Shown here: positions 17,257 through 40,787 of the stretch, in pieces
Numbering within the stretch: position 1 is the first letter of the stretch
Layout of the letters: the number at the start of each line of letters is the position of its first letter
Assembly: GCF_018860665.1 (NCBI RefSeq)
Contig: NZ_JAHKPK010000055.1
Span: 124,001-188,000, forward strand
Direction of reading: 5' to 3'
Length of the DNA: 64,000 bases
Source: Pacificibacter marinus
GTDB lineage: Bacteria; Pseudomonadota; Alphaproteobacteria; Rhodobacterales; Rhodobacteraceae
Program-made: the position numbers and the translations under genes
Notes under the pieces: generated by a model
Seen by the model: the letters and a program-made list of their open reading frames with translations, nothing else
The model's database searches: none
Told to the model about the DNA's origin: nothing

Positions 17257-18015
17257 TTAAAATAAATCAAACAGGAGTTTTACAGCAAGGCTTGCTAAGA
17301 AGAAGAGGATGACTCGGTCAAAAACGCGCGCGCTGAATTTACTGCCGATCCATTCTCCTATCGGCATCGCAAAAGTGAGAGGTATCAATGCAAGTAAGCC
17401 GATGAGTGCGGTGTGGAACGTCATAATGCCGAAGCTGATTTGCATTGGCAGTTGCACCACGCACATGGCTGCGAAAAACGTCGATACGGTCAAGATGAAG
17501 GCGGGTCTGTCTAGTCGGATCGCGTTGAGGAATGTGACAGCGACTGGTGCTGAGATACCCACTGCGCCTTGAAGCACGCCGCCGATTATGCCAACGGAGG
17601 CAACCCAGCGACGCGCTTTGGTTTTCGTGATCCTTAGGTCGAGCTTTGAAAGCCTCAGGCCGATATAGACGACTATGATTACGATCATCACAAACTGCAC
17701 ATAGACGGGTTCTATCTTGGCCAAAACAAATGTGCCAAGACCAACGCCCAGTGCCCCAACAACAGCCAAAATTTTAACAAATACAGGGTCCACGGGCGCT
17801 TTCCTGAATTTCCAAACCTGTCGCAAGTTTGAAATCAGGTTTGGCACCACCATCACGGCAACAGCTACCCGTACGTCATAGATCGACGCAAGAACTGGCA
17901 CCGCAATAACGGGCAGTCCAGCGCCGGTTGCACCCTTTAAGATGCCACCGAGCGTCATAGCAATTGCGACGGCTATGAGCGCCCATGGGTCGGTGACAGA
18001 TATGTCCATATTCAT
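17257..18015 (-). CDS. TSUP/TauE-SafE family membrane permease
   Basis: A 252-aa inner-membrane protein with about seven to eight hydrophobic segments and the TSUP repeat motif GGILKGATGAGLPVIAVPVL (residues 23-42) and its weaker second copy GGVLQGAVGISAPV. Members export or import sulfite, sulfoacetate, sulfolactate or other organic anions. The ATG at 18015 lies one base beyond the stop of the TRAP permease gene, so translation is coupled to it. This tight link suggests a role in the same transport task, for example export of a by-product. Confidence 0.85.
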   Translation of the reverse strand: MNMDISVTDPWALIAVAIAMTLGGILKGATGAGLPVIAVPVLASIYDVRVAVAVMVVPNLISNLRQVWKFRKAPVDPVFVKILAVVGALGVGLGTFVLAKIEPVYVQFVMIVIIVVYIGLRLSKLDLRITKTKARRWVASVGIIGGVLQGAVGISAPVAVTFLNAIRLDRPAFILTVSTFFAAMCVVQLPMQISFGIMTFHTALIGLLALIPLTFAMPIGEWIGSKFSARVFDRVILFFLASLAVKLLFDLF

Positions 18016-18016
18016 T

Positions 18017-19906
18017 TTATGCCTGCAATTTTGGGTTTGACGTTGAACCTGCACGCAAGAACAAGACCAGTCCGACAAAGACCGCGATGCCAACCGCATC
18101 ACTTAGCCAAGATTGATACATCATGACGATTCCTGTCACGGCAAACACAATGCGTAGATTCAGTCCCAAAGTGCGTTGGAAGTAACCAACAACAGCGATT
18201 GAAAAACAGAACACGCTGAGCAGGCCTGTTGTCACAGATGCCACAATTTCTATAGGGGTGCCTTGCATCAAAAGCGCGGGTCCGAAGAAGAACATGAACG
18301 GCAAGATGTAGCTGGTGATGCCAAAGGCAAAGGCGGTCCAGCTTGTCTTGTTTATATCCGAACCAGCTATCCCTGCTGCGACATAGGACGCAAGGGCAAC
18401 GGGTGGGGTGATGGTTGAAATACATCCGTAGAAGAACACGAACAAATGCGCAGTTAAAACCGGCACACCCATTTCAACAAGGGCGGGGGCCACGACGGTC
18501 GCAAGGATAAGGTAGGCAGCCGTTGTGGGCAGCCCCATTCCGAGAATGATCGAGACGAACATCGTCAAGATCAACGCAATCAATGGCACGCCAGCAGAGA
18601 CGCCGATAATCAGGCCGGAAATCTTGGATCCAAGTCCGGTCATTGCCAAAATGCCAGCGATCAACCCCGCGCCCGCACAGGCTACGGCAATCGACATGAC
18701 GGAGTGCGTGCCAGATTCCAATGCGTCAAAGCATTTTGCGAAGAAACCGCGCAAGTCTCTGAATTCGAAAATAATGCATCCAAGAAGCAAAACACCGAGT
18801 GCTGTGAATGACGACTTGAACGGCGAATATCCAGAGACCATCATGCCAACGAGTAAAAAGAACGGGATCATAAACCGCAGACCCGGAATAAGGATGGCGC
18901 TTAACGGCAGTTCGTCTTCGTTTTGTGGCGCGGGCGCAATGCCCATTCTTTCGCCTTGTAGGTGTACCATGAAAAAGATCGATGTGAAAAACAAGATGGC
19001 AGGTATCAAGGCTGCGACCATAATTTCCGAATAGGGCACGCCGATAATTTCAGCCATGATAAAGGCCGCAGCCCCCATGACCGGTGGCATAAGTTGCCCG
19101 CCTGTTGAAACCACGGCTTCAATAGCGGCAGCTTGGTGCGGCTTATATCCTTCGCGTTTCATCATCGGGATTGTCATGGTGCCTGTGACGGCGACATTGC
19201 CTGCCGCAGATCCTGAAATCATACCGAGCAATGTGGAAAACACGACAGCTGTTTTTGCAGATGCAGCCTTAGACCCTTTGGTTAAGCGGCTGGAGATTTG
19301 GAAAAAGAAATCGCCCGCGCCAAAGACATTGAGGAATGATCCGAAGATCGAAAACATGATGATGAACGTGGCCGAGACGCCCAATGGAATGCCATAGATG
19401 CCCTCCGACGAGGTTGTCATAAACTCAGAGATCCGCGTCAAAGAATAGCCGCGAGAAGTGAACACTCCGGGCAAGATAGGAGAGATCAGCGGGTAGGCGA
19501 GAAAGATCAGAATAATACCAGCGAGAAACCAGCCGATCCGTCTGACAACGGCGATCATTACCAGTGCGATCACGACCATCCCGACTTGCGCATCGGTTGC
19601 TGTGGTGATCCCGCCAGACATGGCAATGTCTAGCCAACGTGAAAAGAGGTAATATCCGGTCCCCGCCGCCGCAACGGCCAAGCCGAGGTCCATCGCCAGC
19701 ATAAGCGGGCCTGTTTCTGGGCGGGTTTCCAACCGTCGCAATGCAAGCACCAGAAAAATAAGAACCAACATCACTGTTAAGTGTGTAATGCGCACTTCGA
19801 GTGTCGAAAAGGATGCAAAGCCTGATACAACGTAGAGGTGCCAAAGGCTGAGTCCAATAGCCATCCATCGGGTTGTAAAGGTGAGTGCTGACAGGGCTTT
19901 TTTCAT
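18017..19906 (-). CDS. TRAP transporter permease, fused DctQM type (TAXI system)
   Basis: A 629-aa inner-membrane protein. The N-terminal part (about 1-170) corresponds to the small four-helix DctQ subunit, and the rest is the large 12-helix DctM subunit, with typical segments such as SGSAAGNVAVTGTMTIPMM and GMGLPTTAAYLILAT. Such fusions work with TAXI-type binding proteins, and one lies immediately upstream. Uptake would be driven by a sodium or proton gradient. The gene follows the binding-protein gene after a terminator-like hairpin and is coupled to the TSUP gene downstream. Confidence 0.92.
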   Translation of the reverse strand: MKKALSALTFTTRWMAIGLSLWHLYVVSGFASFSTLEVRITHLTVMLVLIFLVLALRRLETRPETGPLMLAMDLGLAVAAAGTGYYLFSRWLDIAMSGGITTATDAQVGMVVIALVMIAVVRRIGWFLAGIILIFLAYPLISPILPGVFTSRGYSLTRISEFMTTSSEGIYGIPLGVSATFIIMFSIFGSFLNVFGAGDFFFQISSRLTKGSKAASAKTAVVFSTLLGMISGSAAGNVAVTGTMTIPMMKREGYKPHQAAAIEAVVSTGGQLMPPVMGAAAFIMAEIIGVPYSEIMVAALIPAILFFTSIFFMVHLQGERMGIAPAPQNEDELPLSAILIPGLRFMIPFFLLVGMMVSGYSPFKSSFTALGVLLLGCIIFEFRDLRGFFAKCFDALESGTHSVMSIAVACAGAGLIAGILAMTGLGSKISGLIIGVSAGVPLIALILTMFVSIILGMGLPTTAAYLILATVVAPALVEMGVPVLTAHLFVFFYGCISTITPPVALASYVAAGIAGSDINKTSWTAFAFGITSYILPFMFFFGPALLMQGTPIEIVASVTTGLLSVFCFSIAVVGYFQRTLGLNLRIVFAVTGIVMMYQSWLSDAVGIAVFVGLVLFLRAGSTSNPKLQA

Positions 19907-19938
19907 GGTGATCGGTCCAGTAAATTGCGACAGAAAAA

Positions 19939-19966
19939 CCCCGTCACATCTGGTGATGCGACGGGG
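19939..19966 (-). terminator. intra-operon hairpin between TRAP binding protein and permease
   Basis: Inverted repeat CCCCGTC-A-CATC / GATG-C-GACGGGG (11 pairs, one mismatch, 4-base loop) followed on the minus strand by TTTTTC. It probably stops part of the transcripts so that binding protein is made in excess of permease, as is common in TRAP and ABC operons. Confidence 0.75.
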
Positions 19967-19978
19967 CGATTTTACGAC

Positions 19979-20908
19979 TTAGCGTTCGTCAAAGTAACGC
20001 TTGGCGCCTGGGTGAAGGGGAACAGCAATATCATATGCGTCCTCTGCAACGATCTGTGCCGCATTGGCGTTCTCGGCTGCAAATTCATCCAAATGCGCGT
20101 AGATCGCTTTGGTCACTTGGTAGACTTTTTCCTCATCCGCATCAGCTTGCGTGATTAGAATGTTTTTCGTGCCGAGCAAGGTCAGCGGTGCATCAGTGCC
20201 GTAAGCTTCTGCAGGCACTTCAACGATAGAGTAGTAGGGATGCTTGGCGATGATTTCATTCAAACCTTCGGTTCCGATATCAACGAATGCGATATCAGCT
20301 GTTGTGCTCGTTTGGATCACCGCACCAGCGGGATAGCCTGACAAGGCAACTGCCGCATCTACTGAACCATCAGAAAGCTGGCTGAAACCATCTGCATAAG
20401 ACACGAAGCTTGGTGTTATGTCGCGAAAGCTCAGATCGTTGATTTCCATGACATCGCCAAGCAGGTTCAATGTGCCACCACCGGCGGGGCCTACAGCGAC
20501 ACGTTTGCCTTTGAGGTCCGCGATAGAGGTGACATCAGATCCTGCGAGCGTAACAATGTGTAAAACTGAGTTGTGCAATGTACCAATCGACGCGATTGCG
20601 ATGGGGTCTGCGTAAGGGGCCTGGCCTTCATGTGCAAAGAAGGATGTATTTGCGTTGCCGATGGCAAAGTCGAGTTCGCCGTTGCCAATCAGGCGCGGAT
20701 TTTCTGTGCCGCCAGAGGTCACAACGGGGACCATGGAGTAGCCTTCGGCGTATTTGTTCACAAGGTTAGAGGCCGCTTGGCCCACCGGATAGAACGCGCC
20801 GCCAAGACTTGCCGTTCCCATACGTAGCTCTTCTTGAGCCATAAGCGGTGATGCCATCAGCATCATGCCAAGTGAAACGCCGCGCGCGAATGTTTTGAAG
20901 TTAAGCAT
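19979..20908 (-). CDS. TAXI-family TRAP transporter solute-binding protein
   Basis: A 309-aa periplasmic binding protein. Signal peptide cleaved after PLMA (residue 24). The mature chain starts ELRMGTASLGGAFYPVGQAASNLVN, the TAXI family opening, and has the DLKGKRVAVGPAGGGT hinge and GYPAGAVIQTSTT segments. TAXI proteins bind small carboxylates such as glutamate, and related systems import dicarboxylates; the ligand here is unknown. GGGAGG lies before the ATG. The promoter region shares a 14-bp palindrome with the divergent cupin gene and with two other promoters of the malonyl-CoA cluster. Confidence 0.9.
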   Translation of the reverse strand: MLNFKTFARGVSLGMMLMASPLMAQEELRMGTASLGGAFYPVGQAASNLVNKYAEGYSMVPVVTSGGTENPRLIGNGELDFAIGNANTSFFAHEGQAPYADPIAIASIGTLHNSVLHIVTLAGSDVTSIADLKGKRVAVGPAGGGTLNLLGDVMEINDLSFRDITPSFVSYADGFSQLSDGSVDAAVALSGYPAGAVIQTSTTADIAFVDIGTEGLNEIIAKHPYYSIVEVPAEAYGTDAPLTLLGTKNILITQADADEEKVYQVTKAIYAHLDEFAAENANAAQIVAEDAYDIAVPLHPGAKRYFDER

Positions 20909-20975
20909 AGAATCCTCCCAGATCTTATTTTCCTCCCTTGGATGCTACTCTTTTGATCATTCTCGGGTCAATCAA

Positions 20976-20989
20976 AAATATCGATATTT
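20976..20989. promoter_or_regulatory. palindromic operator, copy 1 (TRAP/cupin divergent promoter)
   Basis: Perfect palindrome AAATATCGATATTT. The 12-bp core AATATCGATATT recurs upstream of matA and of the FAH gene. It lies 68 bp from the TRAP binding-protein start and 84 bp from the cupin start. A degenerate relative (ATCATCGACATT, 9 of 12 matches) lies at 21005-21016. Predicted site of the GntR-family regulator encoded at 25541-26206. Confidence 0.7.
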
Positions 20990-21072
20990 AAGCATTAGAA
21001 AATAATCATCGACATTTATTGCGTGCATTGCTACCGTTTGGCCTAGATTCTAGGTGAAAGGGGGACATCTCA

Positions 21073-21621
21073 ATGTCAAAAGGTATCAGGCGTGTCGTTA
21101 CAGGGCATGATGAAACAGGAAAAGCAATTGTCGTTTCCGATGACATCGCGACAAATGTCTTAAGCAGGCCAAATCGCCCAGGCGTGACGCTGACGAACTT
21201 CTGGAAAACAGAAGGCCATCCACAATTCGACGGACCAGATGAGACGCTCGACGGTCCTTTGGTGCTTAAACCACCAAAAAATGGCACAGTTTTCCGCTTT
21301 GTTGAATTTGAACCCGAAGACCCTGAAGTGATGAAAACGCTTGATGGTCGCGCTGCCTTTGCTGAAATGGGCGCTGCGGATCGGATCAAAGACAATCAAC
21401 GCCATCCTTTCATGCACCGCACGGACAGTGTTGATTATGCTGTCGTCGTCAAAGGTAAGATCGTGATGATGATGGATGAAGAAGAAGATGACCTTGTCTT
21501 GGAAGCTGGCGATGTGCTTGTTCAGCGCGGCAACAATCACGCTTGGTCAAACAAGTTCGACGAAACCTGTATTATCGCCTTTGTCCTGATGGATGCAGAT
21601 GGCGATGTAGATCGCTGGTAG
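21073..21621 (+). CDS. cupin-domain protein
   Basis: A 182-aa single-cupin protein. The cupin core is at about 115-175: the first motif contains HPFMHRTDSVDYAVVVKGKI and the second GDVLVQRGNNHAWSN. The usual metal ligands HxH...E are only partly kept (His in MHRTDS, His in NNHAWS), so metal binding is uncertain. Too short for a bicupin gentisate dioxygenase. AAAGGGGG precedes the ATG. Eleven bases separate it from the GST gene, so the two form an operon divergent from the TRAP genes and share the palindromic operator. Reaction unknown. Confidence 0.82.
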   Translation: MSKGIRRVVTGHDETGKAIVVSDDIATNVLSRPNRPGVTLTNFWKTEGHPQFDGPDETLDGPLVLKPPKNGTVFRFVEFEPEDPEVMKTLDGRAAFAEMGAADRIKDNQRHPFMHRTDSVDYAVVVKGKIVMMMDEEEDDLVLEAGDVLVQRGNNHAWSNKFDETCIIAFVLMDADGDVDRW

Positions 21622-21631
21622 GAGCAAAAAG

Positions 21632-22393
21632 ATGTTGAAATTATACCACGCACATCATTCAACGTGCAGTCAAAAAGTCCGCCTTGCTTTGGCTGAAAAG
21701 GGCTTGGAATACGAGAGCATCATCGTCGATTTGGCGAACAAAGGGCACCTGACGCCCGAATATCTTGCGATCAATCCAAACGGTGTTGTGCCAACGCTCG
21801 TGCATGACGACGATTCCATTATGGATAGCAGTGTCATCGTGGAATACATCGATGAGGTCTTCCCTGATCATCCACTTGTTCCCAAAGATGCTGTCGCTCG
21901 CGCAAAGGTACGCACTTGGATGCGGTTCCTTGAAGAAGTGCCCACTTACGCAGTGCGGGTTCCGTCTTTTAACAAAGCGTTCTTGTCGCGCTTTGATGGC
22001 CTTTCAAACGAAGAATTCGCCGACCAACAAGCGGGCCCGCGCCCTTTGCGCAAGCACTTCTATCTCAAAATGTCCAAAGATGGTTTTGGGTCAGATGCGG
22101 TTCAAGAAAGCATCGATCAAATGAAGCTCACCTGTGGACGAATGCAGCGTGCATTGGAAAACGGGCCTTGGCTTGCTGGCGATGAGTTCAGTCTTGCCGA
22201 TGTCGTCGCAGCGCCTCTGATCGACCGGATCGATGATTTAGGAATGGGTGATATTTGGACGGAAGAGTTCCCATTGGTACAAGATTGGTTTGATCGCCTC
22301 AAAGCGCGCTCTAGCTATGATGTCGCGATGTACAAAGGCGCACGCCTGTCTGAGACCCACGCCATTGCGGCCCTTCTTAAAGAAGAAAACTAA
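21632..22393 (+). CDS. glutathione S-transferase family protein
   Basis: A 253-aa protein with an N-terminal thioredoxin-fold GST domain (1-78) and a helical C-terminal domain (about 90-240). The likely catalytic region is HSTCSQKVRLAL (9-20), with Ser10 and Cys12 candidates; the glutathione-binding NGVVPTLVHDD and DSSVIVEYIDE motifs are present. AGGAG lies close before the ATG. In an operon with the cupin gene. Zeta-class GSTs isomerise maleyl-pyruvate or maleyl-acetoacetate before an FAH hydrolase acts, and an FAH gene under the same predicted operator lies nearby, but which activity this one has is not evident. Confidence 0.85.
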   Translation: MLKLYHAHHSTCSQKVRLALAEKGLEYESIIVDLANKGHLTPEYLAINPNGVVPTLVHDDDSIMDSSVIVEYIDEVFPDHPLVPKDAVARAKVRTWMRFLEEVPTYAVRVPSFNKAFLSRFDGLSNEEFADQQAGPRPLRKHFYLKMSKDGFGSDAVQESIDQMKLTCGRMQRALENGPWLAGDEFSLADVVAAPLIDRIDDLGMGDIWTEEFPLVQDWFDRLKARSSYDVAMYKGARLSETHAIAALLKEEN

Positions 22394-22570
22394 GGCTGAC
22401 GCGAAAGCCGCCCCCTGACATATATGTGCTAAGACAATCAGCCATGTCGCAAGTTTCACCCCACATCAATGGTGTTGGTGGACTTTGCGATGTGGCTGAA
22501 CTCATTTTAGATGTGAGGGACGTCGGACTTGATCGTGTTTTGAACCAAAACGCACTCAAATTTGTCAGGT

Positions 22571-22600
22571 AAAAAAAAGACGAAGCCAATCGGCTTCGTC
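22571..22600 (-). terminator. terminator of the matA-matB operon
   Basis: Perfect 9-bp inverted repeat GACGAAGCC/GGCTTCGTC with a 4-base loop, followed on the minus strand by eight T. Strong intrinsic terminator about 70 bp beyond the matB stop. Confidence 0.9.
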
Positions 22601-22669
22601 AAAGATGCCAAAAGGCATAAGTGCTTAAGTCTATATGCGGGGCGCTCGTCGTAAGTCCCCCGCCTTAGA

Positions 22670-24160
22670 TTAACTGCTGAATTCGTCTCTCAAAACATTC
22701 TTTTGGACCTTGCCCATCGTGTTGCGCGGCAGGGCATCGCGTAAGATGTATTTGCGCGGGTGTTTGAAACGGGCCAGCAGAGGTTCGACATGTGCCGCAA
22801 TGGTCTCAGGCGCAATGTCCGCGCCTTTTTCCAAGATCACGGCGGCCAAAACGCTTTCGCCGAAATCCGGATGTGGCACGCCAAAAACAGCGCTTTCAAC
22901 CACGCCATCGATGTCGTTGATCACGTCTTCGATTTCTTTGGGATAGATGTTGTAACCACCAGAAATAATCAGGTCTTTTTGGCGGCCAACGATGCTCACG
23001 CGCCCATCAGCAGATTTAATGCCAAGATCGCCGGTCATGAAAAAACCTGTCGTCCGCAGCTCTTCGGCCGTTTTTTCAGGCATGTTCCAGTAGCCTTGAA
23101 ACACGTTGTCCCCACGCACTTCGATCATGCCGATCTCGCCAGATGGAAGGGGCTCGCCTGTCTGTGCGTTGGTGATTTCCACCTCGGTTCCGGGCAATGG
23201 GTAGCCCACTGTGCCTGCGATGCGCGCGCCATCAAAAGGGTTTGATGTGATCATATTGGTTTCGGTCATGCCGTAGCGCTCAAGGATATGATGGCCTGTG
23301 CGGTCATGGAATGCGGTATGTGTTTCGGCCAAAAGCGGCGCAGATCCAGACACGAACAACCGCATCTTGGCGCAGAGGGCTTTGTCCATACGCGGATCGT
23401 CCAAAAGACGCGTGTAGAACGTGGGCACACCCATCAACATTGTGGATTTTGGCAATTCTTCGATAACGCTATCTTGGTTGAACGCGGCCATGAAACGCAC
23501 CTGAGCCCCCGCCAAAAGACTTGTATTCATTGCCACAAAAAGCCCGTGCGTATGGAAAATAGGCAAGGCGTGGATCAGGCGGTCTTGATCCGTGATTTGC
23601 CAAAGATCCGTCAATGAGGCCGCGTTTGACAACAAGTTTTTATGCGACAACATCGCGCCTTTAGAGCGTCCAGTGGTGCCGGATGTATACAAGAGTGCGG
23701 CCAGATCGTCTGGTCCGCGCGGACAGGTTGCGCATTGATCGCTTGCCGCATTGGCCGCCAGTGACAGCGTGCCGGTGCCCGTCATATCCAGCGTCAAAAC
23801 TTTGGCGTCAAACGCTTGCATCATCGCAGTGTCTTTGGCATCGCAGACAATCACGCGTGGACCAGAATCGCCGATAAAATAAGACAATTCTGACTGCGTG
23901 TAAGCTGTGTTCAGCGGCAGATAAACTGCACCGGTTTGGACCGCTGCCCCATAAAGCGCGATCGTATCAGCGGTCTTTGGCGCCTGCACCACGATACGGT
24001 CGCCTGCTTGGACTCCGGCATCTTTGAGGACATTGGCAAGTTGTGCCACGCGGCGCACAAATCCCGCATAAGTGATCGTCGACCCATCGTCGCAAATCAA
24101 AAAATTATTTGTATTGGTGGCGTGCGGCGCGATCAGGGCGTCATAAAGTGTATTGGTCAA
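22670..24160 (-). CDS. matB: malonyl-CoA synthetase
   Basis: This ANL-superfamily ligase makes malonyl-CoA from malonate, CoA and ATP. 496 aa, the MatB length. Visible motifs are the P-loop YTSGTTGRSKG (158-168), the GYNIYPKEIEDVI segment at the domain hinge, and the C-terminal catalytic lysine in NTMGKVQKN (about 482). Paired with malonyl-CoA decarboxylase: the two genes overlap by four bases (ATGA), which is the classical matAB arrangement and makes malonate or a methylmalonate-like acid the likely substrate. Ends before a strong terminator. Confidence 0.92.
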   Translation of the reverse strand: MTNTLYDALIAPHATNTNNFLICDDGSTITYAGFVRRVAQLANVLKDAGVQAGDRIVVQAPKTADTIALYGAAVQTGAVYLPLNTAYTQSELSYFIGDSGPRVIVCDAKDTAMMQAFDAKVLTLDMTGTGTLSLAANAASDQCATCPRGPDDLAALLYTSGTTGRSKGAMLSHKNLLSNAASLTDLWQITDQDRLIHALPIFHTHGLFVAMNTSLLAGAQVRFMAAFNQDSVIEELPKSTMLMGVPTFYTRLLDDPRMDKALCAKMRLFVSGSAPLLAETHTAFHDRTGHHILERYGMTETNMITSNPFDGARIAGTVGYPLPGTEVEITNAQTGEPLPSGEIGMIEVRGDNVFQGYWNMPEKTAEELRTTGFFMTGDLGIKSADGRVSIVGRQKDLIISGGYNIYPKEIEDVINDIDGVVESAVFGVPHPDFGESVLAAVILEKGADIAPETIAAHVEPLLARFKHPRKYILRDALPRNTMGKVQKNVLRDEFSS

Positions 24161-25455
24161 GACGCTGGTTCCTTTGTCTTTGCTTCTAGCTTTGCGGTCG
24201 ACAGGGTTTGCACAGTGCGCGACGCTTTAACGGTCGATCTCAGTGCAAAATTTTCATGATTTTTTTCGGTGTGATCAACATTATAGAGATAATTGACCAT
24301 CGCACCACGCGACTGTTTATATCCATTTTCAGAGCTATCCGCCCCCGCATGAACATCGTGAATTTCGGCACCATTTCCCAAATGGAACCGCGCGACAGGG
24401 TCATAGGGCAGGCCATCTCCGCGCTTGGCCGTCAAAAGATACCTTGCTGCCATCGCGCGCACGGTTTCGGCGCTGGCGCTGTCATCCAATACCGATTTGG
24501 CAGAGGATGTCAGGTCATCGTCGCTTTCAGGTGCTGCAAGCCAACGTGTCATAAGGGGGATTGGTGAGAGCGTAACAAAGGTATCGATGTTGGGGCAGGA
24601 CAAGGACAGTTCGGCCACGACTTGTTTGATCAACAGATTGCCAAAGCTGATACCAGTCAGTCCCTTTTGGCAGTTTGAGATGGAATAGAAAACGGCAACC
24701 TTCGCTTGATCTTCATCAAGGGGTGTACGGTTGTCGGATAGCAGCGCATCGATGGACCCTGGAATGTCAGCCGTCAGGGCGACCTCGACAAAAATAAGCG
24801 GTTCTTCGGGCATGGAAGGGTGGAAAAATGCAAAACAGCGGCGATCAGGTGGATAAAGTCTGCGGCGTAAATCATCCCAATCATCGATCTGGTGCACGGC
24901 TTCATAGGCGACGATTTTGTCCAAGATGCGCGCTGGCGTGTCCCAATTGATTTGCTTGAGCACCAAAAATCCGCGATTAAACCAACTGCGCAACAAATGT
25001 ACAAAATCAATGTTCGTCCGCGCGAGTTCGGGGTGCGTTTTTAGAAGTTTGAGAAGATCGACGCGCATTTCAACCAGCAAATGCGTGGCGCCAAACGGCT
25101 GGTTCAAGCGGCGCAATAATTCTTGGCGTTTTGGTTCGGCGGCTTTGCACAGTTCAGTAAACCCGGCTGGGCTTTTGGTTTCGGCGTAATCAGTTGCGAC
25201 TTTTGCAACATGTGCCGCGTCGACGTCCAGTTCCGAGTTGAGATACAGGAAAAACGCCAGTTTTTCGTCTTCGTTTAGATCGGCGTAGCGCGCAAGGATG
25301 GACGAGGCCAGCCTCAGTCCAGAGACTTCGCCCTCTGCAGACATAAGCGCGTCACAAAGCATGTAAATATCACGTTGATCATCTTTGCCGCGCACGGTGC
25401 TACTGCGGTCAAAGAGTTGGGACAATAGATCCCCGAGAAACCGATTTCGTTGCAT
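24157..25455 (-). CDS. matA: malonyl-CoA decarboxylase
   Basis: Converts malonyl-CoA to acetyl-CoA and CO2. 432 aa. The N-terminal helical domain (1-160) is followed by the GNAT-like catalytic domain with HPSMPEEPLIFVEVALT (about 211-227), FYSISNCQKGLTGISFGN (about 257-274) and TLSPIPLM, which hold the conserved Ser and His of the family. GGAG lies six bases before the ATG. First gene of matAB, preceded by the palindromic operator and the gntR gene. Confidence 0.93.
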   Translation of the reverse strand: MQRNRFLGDLLSQLFDRSSTVRGKDDQRDIYMLCDALMSAEGEVSGLRLASSILARYADLNEDEKLAFFLYLNSELDVDAAHVAKVATDYAETKSPAGFTELCKAAEPKRQELLRRLNQPFGATHLLVEMRVDLLKLLKTHPELARTNIDFVHLLRSWFNRGFLVLKQINWDTPARILDKIVAYEAVHQIDDWDDLRRRLYPPDRRCFAFFHPSMPEEPLIFVEVALTADIPGSIDALLSDNRTPLDEDQAKVAVFYSISNCQKGLTGISFGNLLIKQVVAELSLSCPNIDTFVTLSPIPLMTRWLAAPESDDDLTSSAKSVLDDSASAETVRAMAARYLLTAKRGDGLPYDPVARFHLGNGAEIHDVHAGADSSENGYKQSRGAMVNYLYNVDHTEKNHENFALRSTVKASRTVQTLSTAKLEAKTKEPAS

Positions 25456-25492
25456 TATAATCTCCAGCTATCCAAGACTCGCTGGAATAATT

Positions 25493-25504
25493 AATATCGA
25501 TATT
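25493..25504. promoter_or_regulatory. palindromic operator, copy 2 (matAB promoter)
   Basis: Perfect 12-bp palindrome AATATCGATATT, 38 bp upstream of the matA start and between gntR and matA. Identical core to the sites at 20976 and 26445. Predicted binding site of the adjacent GntR-family regulator. Confidence 0.72.
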
Positions 25505-25540
25505 TTTTAAACGCGTCCAATTAAATCGTCAAAAAAAGAG

Positions 25541-26206
25541 TTACGCATCCATTTCGCGTGCTAAATACTCGCCCGTCAGGCGGTAATGCTTCAGCAGACA
25601 AGTGCAGGCCAAATCCGCATTGTATTGAACTGCCGCTTCTAAAATTTCTTCGTGCTCAGCTGCAATGTCACGGCTTTGATATTTGCTGCCGCCCGCTGCA
25701 AGATTACGGTAGCGGATGTTTAAATCATAAAGCTGCGCGCAATAGCGTTCCAGCATTGGCGAGCCACTATTGGCCAATAACGCCATGTGAAATGTCTTAT
25801 GAGCCTCTTCAAAAACTTTGATGTCCTGTCCAACGGATTTACGCATACGATGGTGCGTCAGGATGAGTTGTTCTTCCCATTGAGGGGTGGCAGCGGCAAT
25901 GGATTTGCGCAGTGCAAGATCTTCCAACGTGCAACGCAGCTCTAAAATTTCCTCAAAATTTGCTTTATTGGCGGGGGCCGCGCGAAACCCGCGTTGGTCT
26001 ATCCGTTCAACAAGCATATCAGACGTCAGCAGGCTGAGTGCTTCACGCACAGGCGAGGCGCCCGTCTTCAGTAATCCGCGCAGTTGCTCGATCTTGAGCT
26101 TTTGACCTGCGGGTAATTCGCCCGTTAAAATCATATCGCGCAGAGTCATATAGGCGCCGTGTGTCGCGGAGCTTTCTTTGCCGCTCATGTCATCGTTCAT
26201 ATTCAT
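25541..26206 (-). CDS. matR: GntR-family regulator, FCD subfamily (MatR-like)
   Basis: A 221-aa repressor or activator. The N-terminal winged helix (about 15-80) includes GQKLKIEQLRGLLKTGASPVREAL, the GntR recognition region. The C-terminal FCD domain (about 90-215) has the conserved histidines in KTFHMALL, AEHEEILEA and LKHYRLT that bind a metal and acid ligand in FadR/FCD proteins. AAGGG precedes the ATG. It lies directly upstream of matAB on the same strand. The ligand is probably a carboxylic acid of the pathway. Its likely operator is AATATCGATATT. Confidence 0.9.
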   Translation of the reverse strand: MNMNDDMSGKESSATHGAYMTLRDMILTGELPAGQKLKIEQLRGLLKTGASPVREALSLLTSDMLVERIDQRGFRAAPANKANFEEILELRCTLEDLALRKSIAAATPQWEEQLILTHHRMRKSVGQDIKVFEEAHKTFHMALLANSGSPMLERYCAQLYDLNIRYRNLAAGGSKYQSRDIAAEHEEILEAAVQYNADLACTCLLKHYRLTGEYLAREMDA

Positions 26207-26511
26207 TGCACGCCCTTATGCTGGTATTTAAGTCAGGTTAACTGCCTTGGTTGTAGCGTAGATAGGAAGGGCAGTGACCCTTCGTTTATCATCCACCGCC
26301 GCAACGTGAAAGCACACGCTCCGCTTTTATGCATCGAGCCAGCCTTTGCCCTTCGACGGGCAGTGTCTAGGCTCTCTTTATGAAACAATCCATTTAAGCT
26401 TTGCAAATTGGCTTGGCAAAGACGAATTGCTCTAGAATCTCAAAAATATCGATATTAATTGACATATGACAATATAGTAGGCAGAAATGGTGTGAACTTA
26501 CAAGGATTGAG
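26207..26511. other. intergenic region between matR and the FAH gene
   Basis: Divergent control region of 305 bp. The only clear element is the palindrome at 26445-26456; no further gene is supported. Confidence 0.5.
26445..26456. promoter_or_regulatory. palindromic operator, copy 3 (FAH gene promoter)
   Basis: Perfect 12-bp palindrome AATATCGATATT, 56 bp before the FAH gene start and 239 bp from the divergent matR start. Same core as the other two copies. Confidence 0.72.
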
Positions 26512-27378
26512 ATGATGAAATATTTGGTTGGGCAAACACCTTCGGGCGCTGCAGTTTTTGCTGTACAGGGCGAAAACGCTGTTGATCTTACGGCTTTGAA
26601 CCCTGCGATCGGGGCGGATTTGATGGCGTTGATCCAGTCTCCTGAATTGATCGAATCGGTGGCTGATCAAATCGCGGGCGCACCGCAAGTGGCGGTCTCC
26701 TCCATCACGCCGGCACTGCCTGTTGCCAAGCCCGGCACGATCATTTGTCTTGGTTTGAACTACACAGACCACATCAAAGAGGGCGGCTACGAGATCCCCG
26801 ACTACCCCGCGCTTTTCATGCGCTCCAAGAATTCCATCATGGCTGCCGGCGCGCCGCTCGTGCGTCCGACCTGTTCAGACAAGCTTGATTACGAAGCCGA
26901 ATTGATGATCATCGTCGGCAAAGGCGGGCGTCATATTTCTGAAGCCGACGCGCTGGATCACGTCTTTGGCTACACTGTGTTTAACGACGGGTCTGTGCGT
27001 GATTATCAGCGCAAAACACATCAATGGACGCCGGGGAAAAACTTTGACAACACCGGCGCGATTGGTCCTATTGTCGTGACCCCTGACGAAGTGCCAGCAG
27101 GGGCCAGCGGTCTGAAAATCGAAAGCCGTGTTGGCAGTGAGATTTTACAATCGTCCAACACAGGCAACATGATTTGGTCGGTCGCACAAACGATTGCGAC
27201 GATTTCCGAATACACGACGCTTGAGGCCGGCGATCTGATTGCCATGGGCACGCCCCCCGGCGTGGGCCACGCCAAAAAGCCAAACCCGCGTTGGCTGAAG
27301 CCCGGTGAAATTGTGGACATCGAAATCGAAGGCATCGGCATTTGTTCAAACCCAATCGTAGACGAGGTGAACGCGTGA
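26512..27378 (+). CDS. fumarylacetoacetate hydrolase (FAH) family protein
   Basis: A 288-aa protein with a small N-terminal domain (1-68) and the FAH catalytic fold (70-286). The metal ligands are visible: Glu128 and Glu130 in YEAELMIIVG and Asp159 in FNDGSVRDYQ; the C-terminal GTPPGVG loop is present. Family members hydrolyse acylpyruvates (for example fumarylpyruvate) or tautomerise or decarboxylate oxo-acids. Two ATGs in tandem follow AAGGA. A predicted matR-type operator lies just upstream, tying the gene to the matAB cluster. Substrate not determinable. Confidence 0.9.
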   Translation: MMKYLVGQTPSGAAVFAVQGENAVDLTALNPAIGADLMALIQSPELIESVADQIAGAPQVAVSSITPALPVAKPGTIICLGLNYTDHIKEGGYEIPDYPALFMRSKNSIMAAGAPLVRPTCSDKLDYEAELMIIVGKGGRHISEADALDHVFGYTVFNDGSVRDYQRKTHQWTPGKNFDNTGAIGPIVVTPDEVPAGASGLKIESRVGSEILQSSNTGNMIWSVAQTIATISEYTTLEAGDLIAMGTPPGVGHAKKPNPRWLKPGEIVDIEIEGIGICSNPIVDEVNA

Positions 27379-28004
27379 TGAGTGTATTGAGCAGGGTGCA
27401 AAGGCAGCATTTTGTCGCGTGCATCTTCTAAGCCGGATGTGCCGTCAGTTGAAGGCCGGATGATCCTGTCAGGACAATGTTAGATCAAGCCTACTTGCAA
27501 CAGGTTAAATCGTTCTCATGCCTGATGCGCCATCATGTTAAAATCGATCAACTTTTGTCGTTATTCATGCCGCGGGGCCCTGCGTGTAGCGCGGTGAGGC
27601 ATTATGTCGAAGTCGAAACGATTTTGCATTGCTGCGCTGAGGCAAAAAAATGCTGCGTTGAACTTGGTTTTGCTCTGGACAGGACCGGTACTCTAAAATC
27701 GAGTCACCTCGTCATTTAAAGATCGGATTCGCCAATTTCTGCGGCAAAACGGCAGCGTTATTTAACTTTTTTTCATCCCTTTGGTGTGCCATTTCATCTA
27801 AGTGATTGAAATTGTGTAAATGCACCCGCGACATCTTGGCACGAAAGGTCAGTAACAAGGTTGCGAGGTGGCAAATGCTCAGCTATACCCAGCGCGATTT
27901 TTGCTGCCTGTGCATCCGCACGGGCTTCTCAAGATGCCCGACCTTTGATGTGCGCAAATCCGTGTATTGAGAGGGAAAGGCCCAACGACATCGGAAGGGT
28001 GGAC
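27379..28004. other. long gene-poor region before the ATP synthase operon
   Basis: 626 bp with no supported gene. A 17-codon reading frame starts by a TGATG junction on the FAH stop and may be a decayed gene start. An 80-codon frame at 27477-27719 has no family resemblance. The atp promoter must lie here, but no clear -35/-10 pair stands out. Confidence 0.5.
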
Positions 28005-39866: not shown

Positions 39867-40787
39867 TTAGACTTTGAGGTTCGGGATGATTTGTTTCTTG
39901 CGAGACATGATACCTGGCAGAACAACTGCATCGCCGGTCACTGTCGCGCCGAATGATTTTTCTGCGACGGTTTTGACAGTGTCGTTTTGAATGAACAAAG
40001 TCGCTTCTTCGTTCAAGATGTCGACAACAAACAAGAGTACGTGATCCACGCCGTCTTCGGCGGCGACATCAACCATGGAACCCAAAAGGCTGGCTTTGCG
40101 GTCGAGCACGATTTTCGGTGCAGTCGTTTCCAAAACAGAGACGCGGAACTTTGTGCTTTCAACCGTGAACTCTTTTGAATCCATGCGGATCAGTTCAGCG
40201 TCAGAAAAGGCGGAGACGTCAGATTTGGCTTCGAACAATTCAGCCGCATAGGCCGCCATATCGATGTTCAATTCAGTGGCCAGTTTCTGGGCCACAGCTT
40301 TGTCGTGATCCGTTGTGGTGGGGGAGCGGAATTCAAGCGTGTCAGACAAGATGCAAGACAGCATCAGGCCTTTGACCCAATCCGGCATTTTGGCCGTATC
40401 ATCCCCCATCAGGTCGAACATGATCGTCGCGGTACAGGCCAGAGGGCGGATGGTGATGTCAATCGGGCCTTTGGTTTCCAAGCCACCTACCAGTTTGTGG
40501 TGGTCGATGATCGCCGTGATATCAAGGTCGTTGATATTATCTGGCAATTCAGCTGGGTTGTTGGTGTCAACGATGACAACTTTGGTGTCTGCGTCAAATG
40601 CGGTCTTGATTTGTGGTTTTGGGCAATCCCACTTTTTGATCACAAAAGCTGCTTCTGTATTTGGCTCGCCCAGCAAAACAGCTTCGGATGTCTCGCCTTT
40701 GATTTCATTTAGGTACCACGCCCAGATGATAGGGGAACCTGTGGAATCGGTGTCAGGGGATTTGTGGCCAAAAACGAAAGTTGTCAT
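39867..40787 (-). CDS. ppaC: manganese-dependent inorganic pyrophosphatase (family II)
   Basis: Hydrolyses pyrophosphate to phosphate and so pulls biosynthetic reactions forward. 306 aa, DHH phosphoesterase fold. The metal-binding motifs are GHKSPDTDS (7-15), the VDTNN stretch and IIDHHKL (about 92-98); the C-terminal MSRKKQIIP is the usual DHHA2 ending. No regulatory CBS domains. A terminator follows. Confidence 0.95.
   Translation of the reverse strand: MTTFVFGHKSPDTDSTGSPIIWAWYLNEIKGETSEAVLLGEPNTEAAFVIKKWDCPKPQIKTAFDADTKVVIVDTNNPAELPDNINDLDITAIIDHHKLVGGLETKGPIDITIRPLACTATIMFDLMGDDTAKMPDWVKGLMLSCILSDTLEFRSPTTTDHDKAVAQKLATELNIDMAAYAAELFEAKSDVSAFSDAELIRMDSKEFTVESTKFRVSVLETTAPKIVLDRKASLLGSMVDVAAEDGVDHVLLFVVDILNEEATLFIQNDTVKTVAEKSFGATVTGDAVVLPGIMSRKKQIIPNLKV

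Follow-up and report, generated by a model that had tools for sequence, protein, structure and literature searches.

What is signified by a short palindrome that recurs, letter for letter, at the heads of several groups of genes? The DNA considered here, a stretch of 64 kb from a genome of the Rhodobacteraceae (called the window below), contains the 12-bp palindrome AATATCGATATT exactly at 20977-20988, 25493-25504 and 26445-26456, in the surroundings of a gene for a GntR/FCD regulator (25541..26206, minus strand). Scanning the window revealed no fourth exact copy anywhere in its 64 kb, as the first-pass annotation of this DNA had stated when it proposed that the regulator, under the name of MatR, controls all three adjoining units as one regulon. 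We conclude that AATATCGATATT is very probably a noncanonical operator of the GntR/FCD protein, and that the genes it would govern probably form an aromatic ring-cleavage regulon that would yield malonate.

Taken alone, the number of approximate matches in the window is not striking: with up to two mismatches there are four, the additional site being at 40257, against a mean of 1.47 in shuffled sequence, and 5 of 100 shuffles reach four. Markov models of the window (orders 1-3) predict exact copies only 0.0017-0.0052 times per 64 kb and 0.10-0.31 times per genome. The whole genome (3.89 Mb in 65 contigs) holds six, one of them intragenic, so the motif is not common elsewhere in the genome, which the first-pass annotation had named as fatal to its proposal. 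With genes identified by homology, the five intergenic copies are the three of the window, one on contig C33 (C33:217698) and one on contig C9 (C9:34126, equivalent to L017:8127). The C33 copy lies between a YCII gene and a second FAH gene, at the head of another FAH operon; when the FAH frame is extended mechanically to a GTG start it takes in the copy, which was counted as intergenic by homology. The C9 copy stands between an aldehyde dehydrogenase gene and the tctC end of a tctCBA transporter. The regulon extends beyond the window, to C33 and possibly to C9.

Conservation of the palindrome around relatives of the regulator

A search with an alignment of 16 regulators provided 556 relatives, the best 80 of which supplied loci totalling 1.51 Mb; by title these are mostly from Rhodobacteraceae, with others from Roseibium/Labrenzia, Pelagibius and one metagenome-assembled genome (MAG) labelled Sphingomonadales, and the nearest relative is that of Pacificibacter marinus (95%). 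When all the perfect 12-bp palindromes of these loci were counted, none having been chosen beforehand, AATATCGATATT was the commonest, being found in 63 of the 80 loci; the runner-up was found in eight.

Within 300 bp upstream, and with at most one mismatch, the site precedes the gene of the FAH-family hydrolase in 69 of 72 cases, that of the YCII protein in 72 of 74, matA in 18 of 51, the gene of the TAXI-type TRAP solute-binding protein in 5 of 7, the cupin gene in 1 of 7 and the regulator gene itself in 8 of 80. It precedes none of the genes for DctP (0/74), DctM (0/72), the intradiol dioxygenase (0/71), DctQ (0/71), OsmC (0/62) and MatB (0/52), nor, at the same settings, that of the fused TRAP permease; the two sites before the nitroreductase gene (NTR; 2/73) are probably those of L115 and L135, where NTR adjoins the site without FAH. 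Gene matches below 40% identity, matches missing the gene's beginning and upstream regions running off the contig were omitted from these counts. Before the same genes, 59 control palindromes of equal composition have a mean of at most 0.03 and a maximum of 1. Conservation beside the orthologues, which the first-pass annotation had suggested as a check, is thereby borne out upstream of FAH, matA and TAXI, and is not seen before the six operon-internal genes.

In an alignment of 71 FAH/YCII regions constructed without regard to the site (the 9 of 80 loci that have no divergent FAH-YCII pair were left out), the palindrome forms the 12 most conserved columns, with 1.91 bits per column against 1.08 elsewhere, a background that includes gene ends. 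This replaces an earlier figure (64 loci; 1.95 bits for the site, 0.71 for its flanks), which was biased because the rows had been chosen for holding the site. Beside the palindrome of this region (26443-26480 in the window, and its relatives), the word TGTCAA, which reads TTGACA towards FAH, hardly varies across 64 aligned loci and may serve as an accessory half-site or as a promoter element.

These data bear on the possibility that the palindrome is a chance or nonregulatory sequence, an A/T-rich promoter word spread by duplication. The C33 and window FAH sites are indeed duplicates of one another, hence not all copies are independent, and exact copies inside genes do occur. Against this, control palindromes of matched composition hardly ever occur before the genes counted above, no other stretch of the FAH/YCII region is as well conserved as the site, and the promoters of unrelated genes (TAXI, matA and FAH) have it in common. 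Such a reading is close to refuted; the palindrome is real and conserved, and in all likelihood functional.

The TAXI gene and the wider distribution of the regulator offer further comparisons. Nine of the 22 regulator-bearing genomes searched have a TAXI homologue (E<=1e-60), and in seven of the nine the aligned start is preceded, at 69-138 bp, by a site with up to two mismatches, while the remaining two have only a three-mismatch site; as a yardstick, a site with up to two mismatches occurs in 6.6% of the 150-bp upstream regions of 1613 open reading frames (ORFs) of the fetched loci, regulon genes included. In a sample of 149 genomes of the family, our own included, 16 carry a regulator orthologue of at least 51% identity, below which there is a gap before the next homologue at 45%. 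These 16 genomes hold 15 exact copies of AATATCGATATT, six of them in our own genome, and the 133 others hold 18. A site with up to two mismatches was found in the 500 bp upstream of the aligned start for 13 of the 15 other orthologues (51-67% identity), where the 59 control palindromes have a mean of 0.2 and a maximum of 3; weaker homologues have it in 2 of 14 cases (controls: mean 0.17, maximum 4). Fifteen of the 18 exact copies from orthologue-free genomes were examined, three being left out, and 12 of the 15 lie inside ORFs, as labelled by a simple ORF caller that was also applied to the copies away from the regulator discussed below; one of the remaining three adjoins the gene of an FCD paralogue in genome G092, to which we return.

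Within the genus the regulator (E<=1e-40) is present in 3 of 20 genomes, and AATATCGATATT in five: the three regulator-bearing genomes have six, two and six copies, and two others have one each. Intergenic copies are confined to the three regulator-bearing genomes, those of the other two being inside a long ORF. On plasmids, a relative of the regulator at the same threshold occurs on 1 of 72,556 records, from Pacificitalea manganoxidans; the cluster recurs on this record, where its genes are annotated as dioxygenase, malonic semialdehyde reductase, FAH, YciI and matAB, together with two exact sites.

We also examined 17 exact copies located away from the regulator (L174-L190). Regulator-bearing genomes account for 15, of which seven stand before plausible targets, namely FAH operons (L182, L189 and L190), tctC (L181) and a second DctPQM set (L175-L177). 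The L190 site was called inside a reverse-strand ORF, yet the FAH match starts 57 bp downstream, and it was counted as upstream of FAH. In L175-L177, from Loktanella sp. D2R18, Yoonia sp. I 8.24 and one Rhodobacteraceae MAG, the exact site (L175:7349, L176:7517 and L177:7479) follows MttB-family and OYE-family genes and precedes the second DctPQM set and a 164-aa gene that appears, by eye, to be GlcG-like.

The regulator and a probable operator without GT/AC

The proposed binder of AATATCGATATT contains a GntR winged helix-turn-helix domain (PF00392) and an FCD domain (PF07729), both above cut-offs, and has thus the domain composition of the FadR/FCD subfamily. Its AlphaFold model (predicted local distance difference test score, pLDDT, 87.5) has an N-terminal part resembling a winged helix-turn-helix and only helices in residues 81-220, in keeping with the all-helical C-terminal domain of that subfamily. 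The best NCBIfam match is CsiR (NF008576), at 85.2 bits, below the equivalog cut-off of 218 bits, and the protein is accordingly not assigned to CsiR. In PMC6265302 and PMC6667623, CsiR/GlaR is described as a GntR/FCD repressor of glutarate catabolism that is relieved by glutarate, with the primary E. coli sites TTGTN5TTTT/ATGTN5TTTT. The likeness of the two systems would consist in the family match and in a GntR-family repressor that responds to a dicarboxylate; they differ in that the described CsiR sites are unlike AATATCGATATT and that the neighbouring genes are not the same.

The operator consensus of the FadR subfamily is given as TKGT/ACMA, with exceptions that include BioR (TTATMKATAA) and NanR (PMC4494728). 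AATATCGATATT lacks the GT/AC pair and does not conform to this consensus; since BioR and NanR are exceptions as well, that does not exclude the protein from the subfamily. The BioR site described in the same paper is also an A/T-rich palindrome without GT/AC boxes, of a different sequence and belonging to a biotin regulon (PMC4554459). The Arg of the SRxPxREA motif in 7xp0, 6z74 and the L212 regulator considered below aligns opposite Ala50, which is invariant in the 16 orthologues, and we infer that Ala50 in place of Arg may go with the changed operator.

A motif so unlike a GntR/FCD operator lends some colour to the view that another, unlinked regulator binds the palindrome and that the GntR gene is a mere neighbour in the cluster. 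We consider this improbable. The site stays with the regulator when the gene order changes: in eight loci (L024-L026, L136, L138 and L144-L146) it is within 260 bp of the regulator, with at most one mismatch, and outside these it is at the FAH/YCII border. Regulator and sites co-occur genus-wide. The regulator locus of P. marinus has only a 5' stub of FAH and a remnant of YCII, yet the whole palindrome is retained near the regulator. Moreover, unusual operators are known for BioR and CsiR of the FadR subfamily.

Beyond the missing GT/AC pair, several other observations weigh against AATATCGATATT as the operator of this regulator, or narrow the claim. Because the divergent FAH and YCII genes have, for the most part, a single site in common, the two counts are not independent, and neither are related species. 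The presence of the matA site in only 18 of 51 loci makes the control of matAB by AATATCGATATT lineage-dependent. Two loci (L142 and L143) have no match to the two degenerate forms of AATATCGATATT searched, and two others (L028 and L032) have no site within two mismatches. A GntR/FCD paralogue of 39% identity in genome G092 has an exact AATATCGATATT upstream (L049:1501), and hence the palindrome may also serve related regulators outside this group of orthologues; the paralogue gene is divergent from one that resembles, by eye, a TRAP small permease gene. Among the 15 off-locus copies mentioned above, three are intergenic without a visible link (L179, L183 and L185) and five are inside ORFs (L174, L178, L180, L184 and L186), so that an exact AATATCGATATT alone is not proof of regulon membership. 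Our own genome has one such copy, C15:69588, inside a glgC-like gene, which we dropped as a regulon member on that account. Outside our own genome the C9 copy is conserved in P. marinus alone, whose intergenic region is in any case 86.5% identical.

The palindrome between the aldehyde dehydrogenase gene and tctCBA is exact in our own genome (L017:8127) and in P. marinus (L181:7153). Its support being weak, it was dropped as an established regulon member; the tricarboxylate-type tctCBA transporter may be an additional one.

Ring cleavage, malonate and the name MatR

The company that the regulator keeps was determined with 25 reference proteins, counting matches of at least 40% identity within 10 kb at the 80 loci, some of which are cut by contig ends. 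The commonest neighbours are DctP and YCII (74 loci each), NTR (73), DctM and FAH (72 each), DctQ and the intradiol dioxygenase (71 each) and OsmC (62), followed by MatB (53) and MatA (51); TAXI, the cupin and the fused TRAP permease are each found in 7. The usual order is dioxygenase-DctM-DctQ-DctP-OsmC-NTR-FAH, the site, YCII-regulator, sometimes a second site, and matA-matB. TAXI-TRAP-cupin genes occur in the regulator neighbourhood of genomes G162, G155 and G168. Our own genome has a ring-cleavage operon on C33 (L016) with its own AATATCGATATT.

The intradiol dioxygenase is nearest to the hydroxyquinol 1,2-dioxygenase 1tmx (E 6e-72), ahead of catechol dioxygenases. In this enzyme the cluster resembles the hydroxyquinol pathway; it differs from it in that the dioxygenase gene is here clustered with those for an FAH hydrolase, a protein like malonic semialdehyde reductase and often matAB. 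NTR passes the NF003768 cut-off for malonic semialdehyde reductase (262 against 152 bits), and FAH falls among the isomerase/decarboxylase, hydrolase and acylpyruvase-type members of its family. The YCII protein has no relative in the PDB at E<=0.001; the YCII family includes TftG, a dehalogenase of 2,4,5-T degradation. Intradiol cleavage, FAH and malonate enzymes would make sense together if the product were a diketo-diacid that is split to malonate and a C3 acid, a split suggested by the gene contents and by known types of reaction.

The name MatR used by the first-pass annotation would imply a regulator of malonate catabolism, whose regulon would serve the use of malonate as a substrate. 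The regulator gene does adjoin matAB here, MatA or MatB is a neighbour in 51 and 53 of the 80 loci, and a site is found before matA in some of them; like MatR of malonate operons, the protein is of the GntR family. For comparison we took one TRAP-matAB operon, that of a Ruegeria plasmid (L212), in which a GntR gene is divergent from DctPQM-matAB and the intergenic palindrome is TCTTGTATACAAAA; the Rhizobium matAB region examined listed no GntR gene. The L212 regulator is 26% identical to ours over 197 residues, and its recognition helix starts with SRTPLREA as opposed to GASPVREA in the window regulator. The textbook operator of MatR is TCTTGTATACAAGA, for which our literature search gave no paper, and all three window copies are AATATCGATATT rather than of that type; we take TCTTGTATACAAAA of L212 to resemble the MatR operator. 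The text of PMC12303837, in the part examined, makes no mention of MatR. Plasmid records with a MatA relative number 238, as against the single one with a relative of this regulator (both E<=1e-40), and the ring-cleavage and TRAP genes are steadier neighbours than matAB (62-74 against 51-53 of 80 loci). On the strength of the low identity and the different palindrome in this one operon we reject the identification with MatR, and a regulon for malonate as a substrate appears very improbable. What stands of the original proposal is a single palindrome-marked regulon tied to the GntR/FCD gene, on account of the conserved site beside orthologues and the co-occurrence in the genus; the name and the malonate-centred reading are not supported. 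This is a new regulon for a known kind of regulator, misnamed earlier and larger than the window shows.

The ring-cleavage regulon that we favour would operate as follows. A dimer of the regulator would bind the copies of AATATCGATATT that head several transcription units, namely FAH-nitroreductase-OsmC-DctPQM-intradiol dioxygenase, YCII-regulator, matAB and TAXI-TRAP, in the window with the divergent cupin-GST genes. By analogy with CsiR and glutarate, the most likely mode of action would be repression, lifted when the FCD domain binds a carboxylate that is a pathway substrate or intermediate. With the regulon the cell would take up a hydroxyquinol-type aromatic and open its ring by intradiol cleavage, the FAH enzyme would hydrolyse the ring-cleavage product, and matAB would clear the malonate, with the RutE-like reductase perhaps clearing malonic semialdehyde. 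A more detailed scheme is speculative, and we think it unlikely as a whole: an as yet undescribed roseobacter route in which a polyhydroxylated aromatic, possibly algal and of the phloroglucinol type, would undergo intradiol cleavage to a 2,4-dioxoadipate-like compound that FAH would split to pyruvate and malonate, MatB and MatA then converting malonate to acetyl-CoA, with uptake, cleavage and malonate disposal all under an FCD regulator with a GT/AC-free operator. A literature search that did not cover subscription journals or RegPrecise gave no paper with the palindrome and none with four of six pathway terms, and among the papers listed nothing described the cluster or the operator.

The window locus and the reach of the regulon

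The gene contents listed by the first-pass annotation were reproduced with Pfam and NCBIfam, the cupin falling below the Pfam cut-off. Copy 1 of the proposed operator (20977..20988) lies in the divergent TAXI-TRAP/cupin-GST region, 68 bp from the TAXI start and 84 bp from the cupin start; it is in the same place in P. marinus, where the entire intergenic region is identical at 160 of 164 positions. The TAXI-type solute-binding protein gene (19979..20908, minus strand; TIGR02122), a regulon member by the sites upstream of its homologues, is followed by the genes of a fused TRAP permease (18017..19906, minus strand; TIGR02123) and a TauE/SafE-family permease (17257..18102, minus strand; PF01925), the latter included by position only. 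On the other side are the small cupin gene (21073..21621, plus strand; Cupin_2), which in L206, L207 and L209 stands after TAXI-TRAP and whose product matches two PDB cupins named by domain only, and a glutathione S-transferase (GST) family gene (21632..22393, plus strand; GST_N/GST_C), also included by position only and found at 40% identity or more in 1 of the 80 relatives' loci. The TAXI, TRAP, cupin and GST proteins (encoded at 18017-22393) share about 99-100% identity with their P. marinus counterparts; the figures are about 95-96% for the regulator, MatA and MatB and 90% for TauE. This block may have been recently transferred or exchanged.

Copy 2 (25493..25504) lies between the regulator stop and the start of matA, 37 bp from the latter. 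The matA gene (malonyl-CoA decarboxylase; 24157..25455, minus strand; PF05292/PF17408), a putative regulon member, has its end overlapped by matB (malonyl-CoA synthase; 22670..24160, minus strand; NF005702, above cut-off), and the two presumably form one operon. A strong terminator-like stem with a T run follows matB on the minus strand (22579-22600).

Copy 3 (26445..26456) heads the FAH-family hydrolase gene (26512..27378, plus strand; PF01557), is about 240 bp from the divergent regulator gene, and is the counterpart of the conserved FAH/YCII site of the relatives. A promoter scan placed a -35-like TCGATA overlapping it, with TATAGT 18 bp further on; the scan gave 6 promoter-like matches against 5.0 in shuffles and proves nothing on repression, and the argument from promoter overlap was dropped for that reason. 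The window FAH gene duplicates the operon-borne copy on C33: the segment 26219-27380 corresponds to L016:9287-10634 (G000:C33), and from 26443 to 27380, a stretch that starts two bases ahead of the palindrome and runs to the gene end, the DNA identity is 98.2%. Since the corresponding regions of C33 and P. marinus are only 87% identical, the window copy probably arose by a recent duplication or has lately been homogenised. The 116-bp piece before the regulator (26219..26334, minus strand) is a decayed YCII gene with a broken frame, 84.7% identical in DNA to the 3' part of the intact L016 gene, and the palindrome between FAH and this remnant is intact.

The regulon proposed here provides an operator that can be tested across an entire group of orthologous marine regulators. 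It would link two TRAP transporters and several enzymes hitherto without an assigned role to a single ring-cleavage pathway, with malonate as a predicted product. It also corrects a natural misannotation, as a GntR gene may adjoin matAB without encoding MatR. Finally, because its proposed operator departs from the consensus of the subfamily, the regulator is a candidate for studying how the specificity of FCD proteins changes.

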